Below, piece after piece: positions 11,305 through 26,768 of a stretch of DNA of 64,000 nt. The DNA comes from Anaerococcus prevotii DSM 20548 (GTDB lineage Bacteria > Bacillota > Clostridia > Tissierellales > Peptoniphilaceae). Position 1 is the first letter of the stretch. Each line of letters opens with the position of its first letter. The position numbers and the translations under genes were made by a program. Location of the stretch: contig NC_013171.1 of the NCBI RefSeq assembly GCF_000024105.1, positions 926,501 through 990,500 on the forward strand, read 5' to 3'. A model generated the notes under the pieces. That model worked only from the letters and a program-made list of their open reading frames with translations. It made no database searches and was not told the DNA's origin.

Positions 11305-11345
11305 TGGTGGAGGTGAAGGGATTTGAACCCTTGTCCGCGGAAGAT
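11305..11345. other. Probable prophage attachment site in ssrA 3' end
   Basis: Phage genes end just left of the tmRNA 3' terminus and host genes begin on the other side. tmRNA 3' ends are a well-known integration target, and the acceptor-arm/T-arm part would be the duplicated core. The other att site and the integrase would lie left of the window, so the exact limits cannot be set here. Confidence 0.5.
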
Positions 11346-11659
11346 TTCTCCATAGCATCTACAAGCTTAGTAAGATTTATAATTTTGCATAAAGAATAAA
11401 AACCTTACAAAAAATCCTTATGCTAGCTTCATGATACTAATTGTATGGCAAAGCTTACATACAACAGTTGTCGCTAAATTATGAAACAAATATCAGGCTT
11501 GCGACGAGCTCGATATTTATTGCTTGCCTTAAATTAGGCAGCTAGTGCGAAGTTTGCTTCGCTATTGTTGTTTGCGTTTATATTTAATTGCCAATTTACG
11601 TTTTAGCATACGACTTGCAACCATGGGATCGTCGACCACGTCGAAACCAAGTCACCCCC
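11305..11659 (-). ncRNA. ssrA: Transfer-messenger RNA (tmRNA)
   Basis: Read on the minus strand, the RNA begins GGGGGTGACTTGGTTTCGAC and ends with a tRNA-like arm GGGTTCAAATCCC...CACCTCCACCA with encoded CCA. The tag reading frame lies at 11575-11534: ANNNSEANFALAA followed by TAA. tmRNA rescues stalled ribosomes and adds this degradation tag. Length (355 nt) is normal. The gene is intact even though the prophage abuts its 3' end, as expected if the phage restores the terminal bases. Confidence 0.97.
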
Positions 11660-11830: not shown

Positions 11831-12964
11831 ATGAGAAATTCTAACAAGATTTGCGCCATGCTTTTAGCAGGAGGACAAGGTTCTAGACTAAAAGCTTTAA
11901 CAAGAGAGATGGCAAAGCCAGTTGTACCTTTTGGCGGAAAGTACAAAATTATAGATTTTGCCCTAAGCAACTCCACAAATTCAGACATTAAAGATATAGG
12001 TGTGCTTACCCAATACAAGCCACAATTACTTAACCAACACTTGGGAATAGGTGCTCCATGGGACTATGATAGAAATTTCGGAGGGCTAAGGATACTCACA
12101 CCATATTACACCGAAGAAGGCGGTAGATGGTTTGAAGGTACAGCCTCTGCTATATATGAAAATATTAATTATCTGGATGAGGTTAATCCTGAGTATGTTC
12201 TGATTCTTTCAGGAGACCATATATATAAAATGGACTACAGAGAGCTTTTAGATGTTCATAAGAAAAATGGAGCGGATGCGACAATCGCTGTTATGGAAGT
12301 TGATTGGGATGAAGCTTCAAGGTTTGGTATTATGAATACCAATGATGAAGATAGGATTGTTGAATTTGAGGAGAAACCAGAAAATCCAAAATCAAATCTA
12401 GCTTCAATGGGAATTTATATATTCAATTGGCAAGTATTAAGAAGAGAATTAATCGAAGATAGCAAAAATAAAGACTCCTCTAATGATTTCGGTAAGGATA
12501 TTATTCCTAAAATGCTTGATGAAGGTTTAAATCTTTACGTTTATAAATTTGATGGATATTGGAAAGATGTAGGAACTGTAAGGAGCTTCTGGCAAGCAAA
12601 CCTAGATCTTATAGATCCTGAAAACGAGTTAGATATTTATGACGAAAACTGGAAGATTTATACAGCTTCCCTTAACTTACCTCCTCACAGAATAGGAAAA
12701 ACTGGACAGCTTAGCGATTCTTTAGTTAATGAGGCTTGTGTTATCGATGGTAAGGTAAGTAATTCGGTATTATTCTCAAGTGTAGAAGTAGAAGAAGGTG
12801 CTGAAGTTTATAACTCTGTATTACTAAACGGGGTTAAAGTAAAAAGCGGTGCCAAGATTTATAATTGTGTAGTCGCATCTGATATGACAATAACCGATAG
12901 TATTGGCAAGGAAGATGATGGAAAAGTATATCTTGTAAGCAAGGAAGGAATTGAGGAGGAATAA
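11831..12964 (+). CDS. glgC: Glucose-1-phosphate adenylyltransferase, catalytic subunit
   Basis: This 377-aa enzyme makes ADP-glucose from glucose-1-phosphate and ATP, the committed step of glycogen synthesis. The nucleotidyl-transfer motif GGQGSRL (14-20), the K29 segment [21 protein letters not shown] (~127-136), the FEEKP sugar-phosphate motif (~189-193) and a C-terminal left-handed helix region (~285-360) are all present. AAGGAGG lies 5 nt before ATG. It is the first gene of the glg operon and overlaps nothing downstream (1 nt to glgD). In Firmicutes GlgC pairs with GlgD, encoded next. Confidence 0.97.
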
Positions 12965-12965
12965 T

Positions 12966-14090
12966 ATGCCAAATATTGTAGCTTTAATATATAGTTCAGA
13001 ATTTAAAGAGAGAAATTATGGTGTATTGTGTAAACATAGGCCAGACTATATGCTTCCTTTTGGTGGTAGATATAGAATAATAGACTTTGCTCTATCAAAC
13101 ATAGCTAACCATGATATTTCAAGAGTGGTTTTGTATGCGGACAGGATGATTAGATCAACACTCGATCATATCGGTAATGGAAAAAGTTGGGAACTAAATA
13201 GGAGAAATGGTGGACTATTAATAAACTCTCCTTCATATAGTTCTAATGGAAATCTCAGCGAGATAGAGACATATTACGACACTATTAGATACTTTGAAGA
13301 TCATCCTTCTGATTATATTTACATTAAAAATCCAATGTATATCAATAAGGTAGACATAACTGATGCAAAGGAAACAATGGAATCAAATAACCTTGATTGT
13401 TTAATATTTTCTTCCAAAACTGTTGATAAGGACGGTTATTATCTTAATAGAAGAATTATCTCATCTGATGAAGAAGGAAAGCCTTGCTCTGTTGGTCTAA
13501 ATCTTGGAATGAGTGAAGATATTGATCTATTCCTTGGCTCAATTATGATAAAGAGAGATCTATTCTTAAGAATCTTAAGGACTGCAATGGAAAGAAATTC
13601 TCAAATGTCCTTACTTAACGCTATATTTTCTTTTGCTGGAGATGCCAATATAGATTTTTATAGACATAATAAGGAATTTGAAATAATATCTGATATTAAT
13701 TCCTTCTTCGAAGCGAACATGAAATTATTAAATAAAGAAGACTTCGATCAACTCTTCTACGAAGATGGATTAGTTTATACAAAATCAAAAGATGAACCTT
13801 CAACCTCCTATACTAAGGAATCTAATGTAAAGAATTCTCTAATTGCTAATGGTTCAATCATAAGAGGGGATGTAGAAAATTCAATCATATTCAGAGGTGT
13901 AGATATTGGTAAGGGTGCTACAATCAAGAACTCAATAATATTCCAGGATACTGTAATTTCTGATGGTGCAATTCTAAATTATGCTATCACAGATAAGAGG
14001 ACTTTTGTGGATAAGGATACTAGACTATTTGGTAATAGGTCTCATCCATTCGTGACATCAAAAGATGAACATTTAGAGAAAGGATTGTAA
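12966..14090 (+). CDS. glgD: GlgD, regulatory-type partner of GlgC
   Basis: The 374-aa protein is a GlgC paralogue (shared [17 protein letters not shown], residues ~27-43) but lacks the GGxGxRL phosphate loop: that position reads IYSSEFKERNYG. This is the known state of Firmicute GlgD, which forms a heteromer with GlgC and raises its activity. The C-terminal hexapeptide-like region (~280-350) is kept. I start it at ATG 12966, because GAGGAGGAA (12953-12961) lies just upstream; an in-frame extension to 12951 would cover this ribosome site. Confidence 0.93.
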   Translation: MPNIVALIYSSEFKERNYGVLCKHRPDYMLPFGGRYRIIDFALSNIANHDISRVVLYADRMIRSTLDHIGNGKSWELNRRNGGLLINSPSYSSNGNLSEIETYYDTIRYFEDHPSDYIYIKNPMYINKVDITDAKETMESNNLDCLIFSSKTVDKDGYYLNRRIISSDEEGKPCSVGLNLGMSEDIDLFLGSIMIKRDLFLRILRTAMERNSQMSLLNAIFSFAGDANIDFYRHNKEFEIISDINSFFEANMKLLNKEDFDQLFYEDGLVYTKSKDEPSTSYTKESNVKNSLIANGSIIRGDVENSIIFRGVDIGKGATIKNSIIFQDTVISDGAILNYAITDKRTFVDKDTRLFGNRSHPFVTSKDEHLEKGL

Positions 14091-14091
14091 T

Positions 14092-15525
14092 ATGAATATT
14101 CTTTTTCTTACTGGAGAAGCAGTTCCTTTTATAAAGACGGGAGGCCTTGCTGATGTAGCAGGGGCTCTCCCAAAGGAGCTTGTCAAAAAAGGCGTAGACT
14201 GTAGGGTTGTTCTTCCTTTGTATGGAGAAATAACTGACGAGTATAGGTCTAAGATGGAAAAGTTAACAGAATTTTACGTCGATCTTGATTGGAAACACCA
14301 ATATGCTGGAGTCTATCAGCTCAAATGGGATGGAGTCACTTTCTATTTCATTGATAACTTAGAATATTTTGATAGAAAAGGATGCTATGGTTTCGACGAT
14401 GATGCAGAGAGATTTATTTTCTTTTCCAAGGCATGTACCCTTTTAGGAAAAGAAATTAATTTTCATCCTGATATTATTCATTCTAATGATTGGCATACAG
14501 CCATGGTTAATGTTTTTGTAAATGATTTTAGAAGGGGAGATTCTTACTATGAAGATGTAAGGACTCTATTCACCATACATAACCTAAAATACCAGGGTGT
14601 GTTTGATTCAGAAAACCTCAGACTAGCTGGACTTGATGGATCATACTTTAACGAAAATGACCTTAAATTTTATGATGCTATTAACTTTATGAAAGGTGGT
14701 ATAATCCATTCTACAGCATTTAATACAGTATCTGAAAATTATGCAAGAGAAATCCAATACCCATTCTATGGTGAAGGTCTTGATGGAATTATTAGACAGT
14801 ATTCGTATAAACTCACAGGAATAGTAAATGGCATAGACTTTGATATTTGGGATCCTTCTACAGATGGATTAATAAGTCAAAATTATGACATTGGTTCTAT
14901 CAATGATAAGGTTAAAAATAAGTTAGACATTCAAAAGATGTATGGTCTACCTGAAAGAGAAGATGTCCCTTTGATAGGAATTTGTTCGAGACTGACTGAA
15001 ATGAAGGGACTTGACCTAGTAAGATACATTATGGATGAACTTCTTCAAGAAGACGTTCAATTTGTTGTCTTAGGAACAGGGGATTACACATATGAAGAGA
15101 TGTTTAAATACTTTGAGTGGAAATACCCTGATAAGCTTGCAGCTAGAATTTATTATAGTGGAGATGAAAGTCATAAGATTTATGCTGGAAGTGATTTTTA
15201 TCTAATGCCAAGTGTTTCAGAGCCATGCGGCATAAGTCAACTTATAGCTATGAGATATGGATCCTTGCCAATAGTAAGAGAGGCAGGGGGATTAAAGGAT
15301 ACGGTCATAGCCTATAACGAATATACAGGAGAAGGAACTGGATTTTCATTTGCGAATATAAATGCTCACGAACTTCTATTCTGTATTAAAGATGCTCTGA
15401 AAATATACAAAGAAGATAAAGAGGAGTTTAAGAAGCTCGTAGCTAATGCTATGGGTCAAAACAATGACTGGGAAAAGTCTTGTGAGAAATATTTAAATTT
15501 ATACAATGAAATTAAAGCAAACTAA
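14092..15525 (+). CDS. glgA: Glycogen synthase (ADP-glucose type, GT5)
   Basis: The 477-aa protein extends alpha-1,4-glucan from ADP-glucose. The nucleotide-binding loop KTGGLAD (15-21), the HSNDWHTAM segment (~129-137), TIHNLKYQG (~160-168), VNGIDFDIWDP (~243-253) and the C-terminal SEPCGISQLIAMRYG motif with its catalytic Glu (~376-390) are all intact. It lies 1 nt after glgD, with AGAAAGGA upstream of ATG. Its 3' end overlaps the next gene by 20 nt. Confidence 0.97.
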   Translation: MNILFLTGEAVPFIKTGGLADVAGALPKELVKKGVDCRVVLPLYGEITDEYRSKMEKLTEFYVDLDWKHQYAGVYQLKWDGVTFYFIDNLEYFDRKGCYGFDDDAERFIFFSKACTLLGKEINFHPDIIHSNDWHTAMVNVFVNDFRRGDSYYEDVRTLFTIHNLKYQGVFDSENLRLAGLDGSYFNENDLKFYDAINFMKGGIIHSTAFNTVSENYAREIQYPFYGEGLDGIIRQYSYKLTGIVNGIDFDIWDPSTDGLISQNYDIGSINDKVKNKLDIQKMYGLPEREDVPLIGICSRLTEMKGLDLVRYIMDELLQEDVQFVVLGTGDYTYEEMFKYFEWKYPDKLAARIYYSGDESHKIYAGSDFYLMPSVSEPCGISQLIAMRYGSLPIVREAGGLKDTVIAYNEYTGEGTGFSFANINAHELLFCIKDALKIYKEDKEEFKKLVANAMGQNNDWEKSCEKYLNLYNEIKAN

Positions 15526-17776
15526 GAAAAACGAAAGAAATTTATTAGAAAGAATACAAAGCTTTTTGTATTCTTTTTATGCTAAAGATTTGAACAATGC
15601 CAGAATCAACGAAGTATATGATTGTTTATGCAGAGCCTTGATGGAAGATATAGGCAGGAAATGGGTAGACAGCAAGTCTGATACAGAAGAATTTGAGGCC
15701 TATATATTAAGTTTTGAGTACCTTCCTGGAAAATTTATTGAAAGAAATATAGCAAGACTTGGCAAGGAAGAAGAGATTAGAGATGTATTAGCAGAAATTG
15801 GATTTCCCTATGAAGATGTAATCAATTTTGAAAAAGAGGCCAATCTTGGTGTCGGGGATATCGGTATTGGATCTAGCTATCTTATAAGCGAACTTGCTAA
15901 TAAAAAAATAAGGTCTGTTGCCTATGCCCTTCGTTATGAAAATGGTAATCTCAAACAAAAAATTGTAGATGGTAAACAGGTTGAGTATTCTGATTATTGG
16001 CTAAAAGAAGGATCAAATTGGGAGCACAAAAAAGGATTTTCATATGAGTTAGATATAGATGGTAAGAGGCATAAATCAATAGCCTATGATATAGCTATAG
16101 TTAATGACAAGGCTGATTTTGTAAGCACCCTCCGATTATTTCAGTCCGAGCCTACTCAGGCTATTAACTATTCTGAATTTACAAGAGGGGATTTATTTAA
16201 GGCCTACGACGATTATGTAAGTGCAAGCTCTATAAACCAATTTCTATATTTAGATGATTCTTCATATGACGGAAAACTACTAAGATTAAAACAAGAATAT
16301 TTCTACTCAGCAAGCGCAATTAGAGATATATTTAAAAGATACCTAAATAGATACGGATCTATTGAAGGAATAGATGAGAGAATTAAAATCTTTGTAAATG
16401 ATATACATCCAACAATATCCTTGGTTGAATTTATTAGGATCCTAAATCAGAGGTTTTCTATTAATACCAAAGAGGCAATATTTATAACAAGGAGAATATT
16501 CGAGCACATTGCATTTTCTATTACTAGCGATAGTCTCGAAAGCTATCCCGTTGATATGATAAAAAGAATTAATCCTGAAATATTGGAAACTATTATATCA
16601 ATCCAATCAATCCTCCAGGAGGAAGACCCAAAGATATTTTTGATCAAAAATGGATACGTATATTTCAAAAATATCAACCTAGCCCTATCAAACAACTATA
16701 TCTATCTATCTAAGATCTTAAAGGATGAAAAAACAGCAAGAAGAAAGCTATCCTACACAAATCTTGGAACAGATAGACTAATGTATCTAGAAAAAAATAA
16801 TACTCGACTCATGGAGGTTTTTAGAAAAAATGACCTTTATGACGGGCATTCATATGATATTTCTAAAATCGCAGATTTAAGAGATGATGCTGATTTCATC
16901 GATGATTTAGAAAAAGTAAAATATCATAACAAGCTCGACCTAATAGAATTAGCAAAGGAGAAGATTAATCCTTACAGCTTATTTGATGTACAACTTTCTA
17001 TTATTCATGAAAGTAAAAGACAAATATTAAATGCCTTGGCGATTGCCTATAAATACTATTATTTTAAAGAAAATACAAATATTAGGATGACTCCTAAGAC
17101 TTATGTATTTTCGGGGAAGGCAAACGAAGGTTATTATATGGCCAAGGAAACAATTAAATTTATCCTAGCCTTAAAGCATATGATAGATAAGGATAAGATT
17201 ATAAGAGAAAAAATAAAGATTGTCTTTGTAGAAGATCTGGATGTATATAGGTCTAAAATTATTTTGAAGGCAACTGACATATATAATAATTTGACCCTAG
17301 CTAATTTGGATAACCAAGACTTCCATATGCTTAACTCAGCTTTCAATATGACAAATATCTTGACTACTAGGGGCGGTATTTGCGAAAATATAGAAAAAAA
17401 CAAGTCTTTTTACACCATAGGTGATAGCTACAGGGAAATAGTTGATGATAATGAATCTGCTTCTTACGATGCAAATAATTTTTACTATTCCAATGATATG
17501 GTAAGATATACTATAGAAAATCTAATAAGAGAAAGTTATGATATTTTCCCATATGATTTTAAAGTGATGTATGATCAAATCATGATGTATAACGATTCGT
17601 TTAGAATATTCAAAGACCTTGAGGATTTAGTTGTTAATAGAGGAAAAATTGACCTAGACTATCTAGACAAGAAGAAATGGGTTAAAAATGAAATCGATAA
17701 TATACTATGGGCGAATAATTTTAAATTAGATAATAAAATTATAAGGAATGGTATAAATGATTGGAACAAAAATTAA
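15506..17776 (+). CDS. Glycogen phosphorylase homologue with lost active site (probable pseudoenzyme)
   Basis: The 756-aa product aligns along its length with GT35 phosphorylases: YILSFEYLPGKF (~66-77), LRLKQEYF (~259-266), VNDIHP with H301, SLFDVQLSIIHESKRQ (~491-506), SGKANEGYYMAK (~536-547). Yet the PLP-lysine motif SNMKFALNG reads DFHMLNSAFN (L609 in place of Lys), the Arg of KRIHEYKR is Ile, and the glycine loop GNGGLGRLA reads GVGDIGIGS. PLP binding and phosphorolysis therefore look impossible. It could be a glucan-binding regulatory subunit. The reading frame is long and intact, so it is under selection. The ATG overlaps glgA by 20 nt without a clear ribosome site. Confidence 0.85.
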   Translation: MKLKQTKKNERNLLERIQSFLYSFYAKDLNNARINEVYDCLCRALMEDIGRKWVDSKSDTEEFEAYILSFEYLPGKFIERNIARLGKEEEIRDVLAEIGFPYEDVINFEKEANLGVGDIGIGSSYLISELANKKIRSVAYALRYENGNLKQKIVDGKQVEYSDYWLKEGSNWEHKKGFSYELDIDGKRHKSIAYDIAIVNDKADFVSTLRLFQSEPTQAINYSEFTRGDLFKAYDDYVSASSINQFLYLDDSSYDGKLLRLKQEYFYSASAIRDIFKRYLNRYGSIEGIDERIKIFVNDIHPTISLVEFIRILNQRFSINTKEAIFITRRIFEHIAFSITSDSLESYPVDMIKRINPEILETIISIQSILQEEDPKIFLIKNGYVYFKNINLALSNNYIYLSKILKDEKTARRKLSYTNLGTDRLMYLEKNNTRLMEVFRKNDLYDGHSYDISKIADLRDDADFIDDLEKVKYHNKLDLIELAKEKINPYSLFDVQLSIIHESKRQILNALAIAYKYYYFKENTNIRMTPKTYVFSGKANEGYYMAKETIKFILALKHMIDKDKIIREKIKIVFVEDLDVYRSKIILKATDIYNNLTLANLDNQDFHMLNSAFNMTNILTTRGGICENIEKNKSFYTIGDSYREIVDDNESASYDANNFYYSNDMVRYTIENLIRESYDIFPYDFKVMYDQIMMYNDSFRIFKDLEDLVVNRGKIDLDYLDKKKWVKNEIDNILWANNFKLDNKIIRNGINDWNKN

Positions 17777-19679
17777 AATAAGTGATAGAATCAAAAGTCT
17801 GACCTATGAGGAGATAGAAGACGAAAAGCTAGGAGCGATTTATAGCAAAGATAAAACAACTTTCAGAGTCTTCTCTCCAACTTCAGATACCCTAGATCTC
17901 TTGATAAGTGATGATTATATGAAGGTAAGAAAAGATAAATATCAAATGCTAAGAAATGAAATAGGTATTTATGAAATTACCTTAGAGGGTGACTATAGCG
18001 GATTCTATTATAATTATCTGGTAGATAATAAGTATGAAGTAACTGACCCTTACTCTTTTACAGCATCTATAAATAGCCTAAGTTCTGTAGTTGTTGATAT
18101 GAAAGAAACAGATCCTTCTGGCTTTAGAGACGAGAAACTTCCCCAAAACTTGGAAAAAGATGCAATAATCTATGAGATGAGTGTCAAAAACTATACCGCT
18201 GATAAGTCTAGTGGAGTAAGGATGAAGGGGAAATTCCTAGGACTTACAGAAGAAGGAAGAAGCTTTAATGGTGTAAGCACTGGTATAGATAATATAAAAG
18301 AACTTGGGATAAGTCATGTTCAATTATTACCTATCTATGATTTTATATCAGTAGATGAGGATGATTCCTATTTTTTTGATGATGATAACTACAACTGGGG
18401 ATATGATCCTGAATTATATTTCGCTCCAGAAGGCTCTTATGCCACAGATCCCTATGACCCTATATCTAGGATTGTTGATGCGAAGAAGATGATTCAGACC
18501 TTCCATAGGAATGATATCTCTGTAGTAATGGATGTCGTATACAATCACACATTCAAGTCTTATGATTCAAATCTTAACACTCTAGCAAGAGGTTACTATC
18601 ATAGGATGAACGAAGATGGGAGCTTTTCAAATGGATCTGGTGTTGGTAATGAGGTAAAAAGTGAGAATGCTTTTACAAGAAAGCTAATAATTGATTCTCT
18701 TTGCCATTGGGTTAGAGAATATAAGGTAGATGGATTTAGATTCGATCTTATGGCTCTAATTGACCTGGATACTATAAAAATCGCCCTAAAAAAACTAAAG
18801 AAGATAAATCCTAATATTATTATATATGGAGAGCCTTGGATGGCATTTTATTCTCCTTTACCTCTGGATAAGCAGATTCTAAAGGGAGCTCAGAGGTCAA
18901 ATTCATTCGGAGTATTCAATGATGACTTTAGAGACGCTATAAAAGGCGATGTAAATGGCTATGAGAAAGGTTATATTCAAGGGATTTTTTCCAATAAAAC
19001 CAAGATTGAAACCGGTATAGCCGGCTCTATCAGATTCGATGATAGAAGAATTGGATTTGCTGATGATGCAAATGAGACAATTAATTATTTTAATTGCCAC
19101 GACAATCTTATAATCTATGATAAGCTGGCAGTATCTTTGAATGACACTAGAGATATAGATTCTTATATTAAGCTAGCACTTGGTCTTATATTCTTATCTT
19201 TTGGAAAGCCATTTATCTACGAGGGTAACGAATTTAATCATAGTAAAAATAACGACGCAAACTCCTATAGATCACCACTTAGAATAAATTCAATCAAATG
19301 GGAAGATAAGTTAAATAATATGGATATATTTAACTACACGAAGGATTTGATTAAACTAAGAAAATCTATCAAGACCTTTACTAAAACTAAAGCATCTGAT
19401 ATCAAAAAGTCTCTAACTTTTATGGAAGATATTGACGAGTCTTTAGTAGTTTATAAAATAAAGTCAAATAATGAAAATTATTTAGTAGCTATTAATGCGT
19501 CTGTAAATGAAATGAAAATAGAAAAAGAAAAATTGAAAACACTTGTTCCAGTAAACAAAATTATTAATATTTTTTCCAAAAAGGGTATAAATAAAACAAA
19601 TACTAATGTAGAAGAAGGATTAATAGTAGAAGGTAAATCTGTAAATGTATTTAAAATAGGAGAGGAAAATGGACTATAA
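17757..19679 (+). CDS. pulA: Type I pullulanase (glycogen debranching, GH13)
   Basis: The 640-aa enzyme hydrolyses alpha-1,6 branches. The pullulanase signature YNWGYDP lies at 212-218. GH13 region I DVVYNH (259-264), region II GFRFD with nucleophile D330, region III YGEPW with acid E359 and region IV CHDN with H448-D449 are all present, so it looks active. An N-terminal carbohydrate-binding-like domain (~25-130) precedes the barrel. There is no signal peptide, so it acts in the cytoplasm on stored glucan. It overlaps the phosphorylase homologue by 20 nt and pgm by 11 nt. Confidence 0.93.
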   Translation: MIGTKIKISDRIKSLTYEEIEDEKLGAIYSKDKTTFRVFSPTSDTLDLLISDDYMKVRKDKYQMLRNEIGIYEITLEGDYSGFYYNYLVDNKYEVTDPYSFTASINSLSSVVVDMKETDPSGFRDEKLPQNLEKDAIIYEMSVKNYTADKSSGVRMKGKFLGLTEEGRSFNGVSTGIDNIKELGISHVQLLPIYDFISVDEDDSYFFDDDNYNWGYDPELYFAPEGSYATDPYDPISRIVDAKKMIQTFHRNDISVVMDVVYNHTFKSYDSNLNTLARGYYHRMNEDGSFSNGSGVGNEVKSENAFTRKLIIDSLCHWVREYKVDGFRFDLMALIDLDTIKIALKKLKKINPNIIIYGEPWMAFYSPLPLDKQILKGAQRSNSFGVFNDDFRDAIKGDVNGYEKGYIQGIFSNKTKIETGIAGSIRFDDRRIGFADDANETINYFNCHDNLIIYDKLAVSLNDTRDIDSYIKLALGLIFLSFGKPFIYEGNEFNHSKNNDANSYRSPLRINSIKWEDKLNNMDIFNYTKDLIKLRKSIKTFTKTKASDIKKSLTFMEDIDESLVVYKIKSNNENYLVAINASVNEMKIEKEKLKTLVPVNKIINIFSKKGINKTNTNVEEGLIVEGKSVNVFKIGEENGL

Positions 19680-21363
19680 AGCAATTTATAAAAAGTGGCT
19701 AGAAGATGATAGATTTGATGAAGAAACAAAAAAAGATCTTTTGAGCATAAAAGACGATGATGAAGAAATAAAAGATCGATTCCATCAATCATTAAAATTT
19801 GGTACAGCTGGTCTTAGGGGTAAGCTAGGCGTTGGAACCAATAGAATGAATGTATACAATGTTGCTCAAGCAAGTCAAGGTTTTGCTGATACTATAGCAG
19901 AAGGTGGCGAAGAAGCAAAGAAAAAGGGTGTAGCAATTGCTTACGACGTAAGACACAAGTCAGAGGAGTTTGCAAAAGTAGCAGCGGAAGTCTTTGCTGC
20001 TAATGGAATTAAGGTATATATACACAAAGAAATCCAACCAACACCAGTATGTTCCTACACAATAAGAAAGCTAGGTAATGTTGCTGGTGTCATGGTAACA
20101 GCAAGTCACAACCCAAGAGAATACAACGGATATAAGGCTTACAACCACGAAGGAAGCCAAATTTTAGATGAAACTGCAGATAAAATTCTTGGTCATATAG
20201 CAGAGCACCCAGACTTTTTTGAAATACCAAGAATAGATTTTGCAAAGGGCCTTGAAGATGGGATCATTGAATATGTTGATGACCAATTGATAGAAGATTA
20301 TATCAAGGAAGTTTTATCTTGCACAATCAATGATGAAGATATAGATAAAAGCATTAACGTTGTCTACACTCCACTAAATGGATGTGGAAACAAGCTAGTT
20401 AGAAGAATTCTTGACGAGAGAGATTTCAAGAATATCCATATAGTTAAAGAGCAAGAAAAGCCAGACCCTGACTTTACAACTGTTGGATATCCTAACCCAG
20501 AAGATCCAAAGGCCTTTAAATACTCTGAAGAACTAGGCAAGAAAGTATCTGCAGAGCTTTTACTTGCAACAGATCCTGACTCTGATAGATGTGCGGTAGA
20601 AGTTTTGGATAAGGATGTAGAATACAAATTCCTAACAGGTAACCTAATTGGATCCCTATTGACAAATTATATACTAGAAGCACTTGATGGAAATAATGAA
20701 TTACCAGAAAATGGTGCTGTAGTTAAGTCATTGGTATCAACAGACTTAGTTAAGCCTATTGCCAATAAATATGGAGTAAAAGTATATGACGTCCTAACAG
20801 GATTTAAGAATATCTACGCAGTAGCAAACGAGCTAGATGAAAATAAGAGTGGTAAATTTATATTTGGATTTGAAGAAAGTATAGGCTACAATTACAAGGA
20901 TTTCGTTAGGGATAAAGATGCTGTAAACTCTGCAATGATGATTACCGAAATGGCAGCTTATTACAAGGCCAAGGGTAAGAGCTTACTTGATGTGATAAAT
21001 GAATTATTTAATGAGCATGGATACTATTCAAATGAAGTTGTTTCTATTGTTCTTGAAGGTTTAGATGGACAAGAAAGAATTTCTAGAATAATGACAGAAG
21101 TTAGAAACAATCCTATTAAAGAAGTTTGTGGACTAAAAGTTAAAAATATCATAGACTACCAAAATGATAATACAGGACTTCCAAAGTCAAATGTTTTAAA
21201 ATACTACCTTGAAGATAATTCATGGTTTGCCCTAAGACCTTCAGGAACCGAGCCAAAAATAAAAGTCTACATTAATGCAATTGATGATAGCCTAGAGGCT
21301 TCTGAGAAGAAATTAGAAAATATAAATAAGTTTATGCAAGATGTTATAGATTCAATTGAATAA
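19669..21363 (+). CDS. pgcA: Phosphoglucomutase (alpha-PGM/PMM superfamily)
   Basis: The 564-aa enzyme interconverts glucose-6-phosphate and glucose-1-phosphate, feeding GlgC. The catalytic phosphoserine loop TASHNP has S146. The metal loop DPDSDR is at 302-307, the sugar loop GFEESIGY at ~400-407, and the phosphate-binding RPSGTEPKIKVY near 521-532. ATG follows AGGAGAGG. It ends the glg operon; a terminator follows ~100 nt later. Together with glucokinase at 39200 it links free glucose to glycogen. Confidence 0.95.
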   Translation: MDYKAIYKKWLEDDRFDEETKKDLLSIKDDDEEIKDRFHQSLKFGTAGLRGKLGVGTNRMNVYNVAQASQGFADTIAEGGEEAKKKGVAIAYDVRHKSEEFAKVAAEVFAANGIKVYIHKEIQPTPVCSYTIRKLGNVAGVMVTASHNPREYNGYKAYNHEGSQILDETADKILGHIAEHPDFFEIPRIDFAKGLEDGIIEYVDDQLIEDYIKEVLSCTINDEDIDKSINVVYTPLNGCGNKLVRRILDERDFKNIHIVKEQEKPDPDFTTVGYPNPEDPKAFKYSEELGKKVSAELLLATDPDSDRCAVEVLDKDVEYKFLTGNLIGSLLTNYILEALDGNNELPENGAVVKSLVSTDLVKPIANKYGVKVYDVLTGFKNIYAVANELDENKSGKFIFGFEESIGYNYKDFVRDKDAVNSAMMITEMAAYYKAKGKSLLDVINELFNEHGYYSNEVVSIVLEGLDGQERISRIMTEVRNNPIKEVCGLKVKNIIDYQNDNTGLPKSNVLKYYLEDNSWFALRPSGTEPKIKVYINAIDDSLEASEKKLENINKFMQDVIDSIE

Positions 21364-26531: not shown

Positions 26532-26537
26532 AAAACT

Positions 26538-26700
26538 ATCCTGAGGTGTCGGTCCAAATTTAAACCTACAACTTTTATAAGGGATTGCGGAGTTCTAGCT
26601 TTGATGGCAAGCCTCCTTTGAGGGGAAGTCAGAGATTCTAGACAGCTTGCCCACCTTCACATACGCGAAGGTCTTAAAGATAGGGCCCCCTTAGGATTTA
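26538..26700 (+). ncRNA. ssrS: Probable 6S RNA
   Basis: A ~160-nt transcript without ORF has complementary ends (ATCCTGAGG at 26538-26546 with CCTTAGGAT at 26689-26697), an inner stem GGCAAGC/GCTTGCC, small hairpins CCTC/GAGG and CCTTC/GAAGG, and a conserved-looking GGGCCC near the 3' side. A long irregular rod with these end motifs is the Firmicute 6S pattern; 6S RNA binds the housekeeping RNA polymerase. The promoter is near consensus. The call rests on remembered consensus, not on a covariance search. Confidence 0.72.
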
Positions 26701-26768
26701 ATTAAATTAGGTTTACTTGCCAATTTTTGGGTATAAATTAAGTAAGACTAAATAATAAAGGAGAACAT

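Follow-up and report, generated by a model that had tools for sequence, protein, structure and literature searches.

A conserved glycogen phosphorylase homologue with a destroyed pyridoxal phosphate site in the glycogen operon of Anaerococcus

The glycogen operon of Anaerococcus prevotii DSM 20548 was analysed within a stretch of 64,000 nucleotides (contig NC_013171.1, positions 926,501 to 990,500; this whole stretch is referred to as the window), in which glgC, glgD, glgA, the gene considered here, pulA and pgm follow one another on the same strand (Table 1). The gene is an open frame of 756 codons that shares 20 bases with glgA and another 20 with pulA and encodes a homologue of glycogen phosphorylase (GlgP), a textbook pyridoxal phosphate (PLP) enzyme of glycosyltransferase family 35 (GT35). 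An earlier interpretation made without database searches (the sequence-only reading) had placed the frame between glgA and pulA and described it as GT35-like over its full length. Both descriptions hold, with a PF00343 match of 360 bits (cut-off 27), which places the protein in GT35 by homology, and an hhalign alignment to GT35 of 744 columns at a probability of 100. With TIGR02093, the model of glycogen/starch/alpha-glucan phosphorylases, the protein reaches 372.2 bits and falls below the curated cut-off of 552.9, compared with 1070.8 bits for a second, intact GlgP that is indeed present in the same genome (C2:470471-472567, the sole other PF00343 match there). Three further degenerate copies from relatives fall on both sides of this cut-off, L095 and L113 above it and L107 below.

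The catalytic apparatus of the window protein is extensively altered. Of 34 catalytic, PLP and substrate positions, chosen from the motifs of the intact GlgP of the same genome, the window protein retains 9. The count is 7-23 in the other degenerate copies, 31-34 in 23 of the 24 rows selected to represent stand-alone intact GlgPs, and 30 in the remaining one. The PLP lysine, the Lys568/Arg569 pair, the glycine loop, His377 (here Phe337), Asn484 and the SGTGN loop are all lost or changed (rabbit-muscle phosphorylase numbering). The sequence-only reading was right that the PLP lysine is lost, since residues 589-621 contain none and the nearest lysines are at 588 and 631, but the position of the lysine is taken by Asn610 (MAFFT) or Asp605 (hhalign) and not by the Leu609 that it named. 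The two methods differ by five residues at this point, yet no lysine is nearby, and an alignment artefact or wrong register was rejected. Its other observations, an isoleucine (Ile499) in place of the phosphate-site arginine and an altered glycine loop (V-G-D-I-G-I versus N-G-G-L-G-R), proved correct. Phosphorolysis by GT35 enzymes depends on PLP and, with both the PLP and the phosphate sites lost, this known chemistry predicts that the operon copy is incapable of PLP-dependent phosphorolysis. Arg649 was dropped as a diagnostic residue because it varies in some intact GlgPs too. Two stand-alone GlgPs (L130 and L131, genomes G031 and G033) are otherwise nearly intact and are changed at the equivalents of Tyr90, Trp491 and Arg649, in the same numbering.

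The degenerate gene occurs in all 31 genomes of the genus Anaerococcus, that of the window counted, and in another 21 family genomes, which by our reading of the combined match lists and fetched loci amounts to 52 of 130 family genomes; the loci of A. marasmi and A. tetradius show 92% and 78% identity, respectively. The upstream neighbour is glgA in all 52 carriers and the downstream neighbour pulA in 51, the contig ending first in the other (G017). Among the 50 loci that were measured, the gap to glgA is below 150 bases in 49 (the frames overlap in G095) and the gap to pulA in 48, being wider in the broken copy of G029 and hidden by the contig end in G017; the window and G076 have the same gene order as these 50. 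A separate GlgP match accompanies the degenerate gene in 50 of the 52 carriers, with fragments only in G076; G058 and G017, both fragmented assemblies, carry the gene without such a match. Strict co-occurrence with glgA or glgD was rejected because the gene is missing from several genera that possess both. Outside the family, none scoring like the degenerate clade was found among the matches listed for the order (249 genomes), the class (391) and the phylum (398, E <1e-205), with the sole exception of G384 (759 bits), whose GlgP proved intact; the matches that score like intact GlgPs in these wider searches (e.g. G677, G744 and several in G219-G222 and G232-G234) were mostly unchecked for the lysine, and very divergent or independent cases could escape.

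The substitutions are conserved among relatives. Whereas all 55 intact GlgP rows have the PLP lysine, it is absent from 38 and present in 11 of the 49 aligned degenerate rows, and within Anaerococcus the stretch corresponding to residues 589-621 is free of lysine in all 30 aligned copies (the 31st, that of G029, is broken before this point). Within the PLP loop, Asn641 is kept by none of the 49 degenerate rows and Thr639 by three, and the loop is altered nonetheless in the 11 rows that bear the lysine, which changes four times on a tree of 76 rows. This is most simply explained by a single loss of catalysis in the common ancestor and a later decay of the lysine; the order of loss suggested is the PLP loop and the glucose site first, and the lysine later and several times. 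Three copies (L095, L096 and L097, from G085, G072 and G086) keep the lysine and 21-23 of the 34 positions with a changed SGTGN loop, possibly a half-way state.

The 26 degenerate rows of the 76-row tree form one side of a branch with a Shimodaira-Hasegawa-like approximate likelihood ratio (SH-aLRT) support of 100. Together with the intact GlgPs of G384 and G406 they are separated from all other rows with a support of 96 in this tree and 95.8 in a tree of 28 rows. Both of these intact GlgPs are encoded in operons, in the order glgC-glgD-glgA-glgP-pulA in G384 and glgD-glgA-glgP-pulA in G406, where the examined stretch ends in glgD. A recent duplication of the genome's intact GlgP was rejected, as grouping with the family's stand-alone GlgP has a p value of 2.6e-5 in the approximately unbiased (AU) test (28 chosen rows, LG+G4). 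Judged from these sequences, the degenerate gene is descended from an operon GlgP and not from the stand-alone one; that its clade adjoins the intact operon GlgPs argues that the GlgP native to the operon was retained after losing catalysis. Branches in the tree are long, which leaves the precise point of attachment less certain than the single origin. Both trees exclude three highly divergent copies at the same operon position, with 697, 698 and 760 codons and very long branches (L109 and L110 from G053 and G054, and L112 from G062).

The ratio of nonsynonymous to synonymous substitution rates (dN/dS, Nei-Gojobori) of the degenerate gene is 0.062 against G007 and 0.057 against G017, the two pairs with unsaturated dS; more distant pairs, with dS near or past saturation, were excluded. 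The corresponding values are 0.039 for the intact GlgP (G007 only) and 0.013-0.083 for the other operon genes. A sequencing error or pseudogene in the window is unsupported in view of the open frame, the dN/dS values and the relatives. With catalytic residues lost and purifying selection in many species, the gene has the hallmarks of a pseudoenzyme, the dN/dS values coming from two pairs, and it is very probable that the protein is non-catalytic and kept by selection. The central claim of the sequence-only reading, that a glycogen operon contains a conserved phosphorylase homologue whose PLP site is destroyed and which is apparently non-catalytic, thus stands (9 of 34 positions, 31 of 31 genomes of the genus, dN/dS about 0.06).

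What has been retained is unevenly distributed along the protein. Of 157 columns that are at least 95% identical in the 55 intact GlgPs, 34 are kept by at least 90% of the 49 degenerate rows and 34 by fewer than 10%, and the intact residue is kept at a frequency of 0.40 within four residues of the named catalytic sites versus 0.57 elsewhere (60/97 columns, Mann-Whitney p 0.003, 17 thinned rows). A constraint ratio, degenerate over intact conservation in 15-column windows, was calculated from 17 thinned degenerate and 33 thinned intact rows, leaving out L109, L110, L112 and L215. This ratio is 0.31-0.37 over the PLP, His377 and Asn484 segments (0.31-0.35 at the PLP loop, 0.36 at the His377 loop), 0.35-0.37 at residues 395-424, about 0.5 at the glycine loop and about 1 at residues 140-154, 170-184 and 545-574, and it is highest at residues 20-34. 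These residues, the W-E-x-K-K strand and a tower-like segment, which form the dimer interface in rabbit muscle phosphorylase, where residues 20-34 correspond to the cap, are of the operon-GlgP sequence type, unlike the family's intact GlgPs (in a selection of rows). Constraint has broken down at the PLP site and is retained in the segments likely to form the subunit interface.

We propose the following course of events. Synteny and the tree point to an ancestor with a glgC-glgD-glgA-glgP-pulA operon and a working GlgP, and to a second GlgP, of a different clade, located elsewhere in the genome. The operon copy lost its PLP and phosphate sites and remained in place under purifying selection. 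Its product, for which a phosphorylase fold is expected from homology, most likely still folds as a phosphorylase-like dimer, and this dimer may act alongside GlgA and PulA, as a scaffold or a regulator that might bind a glucan chain or GlgA itself. To the whole statement, that the operon's original GlgP turned into a pseudoenzyme and is now a dimeric scaffold or regulator beside GlgA and PulA, we assign a probability of about 0.5. A role for the non-catalytic protein in glycogen metabolism is probable; the scaffold or regulator mechanism as such, which the sequence-only reading had suggested as a glucan-binding scaffold or a regulator of GlgA/PulA, is put forward tentatively. The same reserve applies to the more pointed version, in which this GT35 family, made from the operon phosphorylase, might consist of dimers devoted to scaffolding or regulating the synthesis of glycogen by GlgA and its trimming by PulA.

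Several observations weigh against this proposal. The sole AlphaFold model has a mean predicted local distance difference test score (pLDDT) of 74.7 and a predicted template modelling score (pTM) of 0.69, with residues 598-638 below a pLDDT of 50. Glucan binding finds no support in the sequence, in which the glucose-holding cleft positions (the His377, Asn484 and Glu672 equivalents) are changed, and any glucan would consequently need to bind elsewhere. The assignment of the subunit interface leans on structural knowledge of rabbit muscle phosphorylase, and the constraint ratio of 2.01 at residues 20-34 derives in part from low conservation there in the mixed intact set. The degenerate gene also has a higher rate of evolution than those of the intact GlgP and GlgA, and four of its 52 copies are not full-length (the frame is broken in G029, G068 and G095, and G028 encodes the N-terminal part in a different frame). 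Furthermore, the gene is dispensable over evolution: 23 other family genomes have a glgD match, and in 16 of the 18 of their glg loci that were examined pulA directly follows glgA, the two others being without pulA after glgA (G060) or with an unassigned 349-codon open reading frame in between (G073). The locus of G050 is without glgC and glgD.

GT35 enzymes are commonly dimers, and the degenerate copy could alternatively be a regulatory subunit: in a heterodimer it would tune the working GlgP in the way that GlgD tunes GlgC in the same operon. The separate GlgP match in nearly all carriers fits such a partnership, as do the homodimers stated for barley PHO1 and cyanobacterial GlgP (PMC12892837) and the behaviour of Streptococcus mutans GlgD, which is inactive alone while the GlgC/GlgD form is fully active (PMC5268466; this and the other papers cited here are represented by excerpts). 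However, the cap, the W-E-x-K-K strand and the tower-like segment are operon-type where the family's intact GlgPs are of another type (in the rows selected), and the gene is grouped with synthesis genes whereas the intact glgP lies elsewhere in the genome, so that we consider a heterodimer unlikely. Rather less probable still is a relic on its way out, in which the second GlgP made catalysis redundant and the gene decays at differing speeds. Its absence from the same operon in other genera, the incomplete copies and the four changes of the lysine would agree with decay, although assembly errors may account for some of the broken frames; a dN/dS near 0.06 in close pairs, a single full-length frame in 48 of the 52 copies across deep divergence, the 34 of 157 intact-invariant columns that are kept and a segment more conserved than in the intact enzymes all argue for maintenance. 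Other retaining transferases of the GT-B fold work without PLP, and the former PLP loop is non-random in an alignment of 27 copies (25 from the genus, two from near relatives), where F606, N614 and N617 never vary and D602, N603 and L609 rarely do, but a changed enzyme whose GT-B cleft acts on another donor, such as a nucleotide sugar or a glucose phosphate, is very improbable given that the loop is unconserved over the wider degenerate clade, the glucose-site residues are changed and the AlphaFold model is unreliable at this loop.

The proposed scaffold or regulator can be set beside several known systems. The Clostridioides difficile operon glgC-glgD-glgA-glgP-amylase, in which knock-down of glgP doubled glycogen (PMC11423593), and the Lactobacillus acidophilus operon glgBCDAP-amy-pgm (PMC4282360) are alike, by description, in the slot between glgA and an amylase-type gene and in full-length GT35 homology; their GlgPs are treated as working, whereas the window protein is without the PLP and phosphate sites. 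Firmicute GlgD is likewise encoded within the operon and is homologous to a glycogen enzyme yet inactive (on its own in S. mutans, PMC5268466), although it derives from ADP-glucose pyrophosphorylase and complexes with GlgC, while the phosphorylase-like protein is without a known partner. The plant non-catalytic beta-amylases BAM4 and BAM9 are also dead relatives of a glucan-degrading enzyme and regulate storage-glucan turnover (PMC8774843), but belong to another enzyme family and other organisms, and their function has been shown genetically, whereas that of the present protein is a proposal. No published report of a conserved GT35 pseudoenzyme was found in the literature searched, most subscription journals being outside its scope, and the excerpts of PMC12892837 name no inactive GT35 protein. 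The legend of an archaeal enzyme table that includes a GT35 column uses the letter i for 'one inactive isoform' (PMC11046441), a mark that may concern GT35 or another column; the four uses of the word 'inactive' in the excerpts name no GT35 protein. An 'inactive phosphorylase homologue' in PMC9415263 was set aside, as its context in the excerpt is peptide biosynthesis and phosphotransferase homologues, unrelated to glycogen. If the proposal is true, bacteria would have in this protein an equivalent of the non-catalytic proteins of plant starch metabolism. Some genera carry the gene and others lack it in an otherwise identical operon; this natural comparison allows the role of the dead phosphorylase in glycogen metabolism to be tested directly.

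Table 1. Genes of the glycogen operon and segments of the degenerate phosphorylase homologue (window coordinates).
Feature	Position	Strand	Basis or remark
glgC, ADP-glucose pyrophosphorylase	11831..12964	+	
glgD, GlgC-like second subunit	12966..14090	+	TIGR02092 match above cut-off at this genome position
glgA, glycogen synthase	14092..15525	+	TIGR02095 535 bits; PF08323
Degenerate GT35 glycogen phosphorylase homologue, 756 aa, proposed non-catalytic	15506..17776	+	PF00343, TIGR02093, catalytic positions, dN/dS
N-terminal cap-like segment, residues 20-34	15563..15607	+	Mean pairwise identity 0.41 degenerate vs 0.21 intact (thinned)
Glycine loop, residues 115-121	15848..15868	+	G-V-G-D-I-G-I replacing G-N-G-G-L-G-R
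W172-E-H-K-K176 strand, operon-type form kept	16019..16033	+	E173, H174, K176 invariant in 27 aligned copies
Ser498-Ile499 replacing phosphate-site Lys568-Arg569	16997..17002	+	
Former PLP-lysine loop, residues 589-621	17270..17368	+	No lysine; AlphaFold pLDDT <50 over residues 598-638
pulA, pullulanase-type GH13 with CBM48	17757..19679	+	PF02922 + PF00128; name pulA as in the sequence-only reading
pgm, phosphoglucomutase	19669..21363	+	PF02878-PF02880

Two RNA matches lie in the same window. A 6S RNA match at 26535-26701 (+) scores 46.5 bits, barely above the gathering score of 46.4, and a tmRNA gene (166.5 bits) is located at 11305-11659 on the reverse strand, just upstream of glgC.

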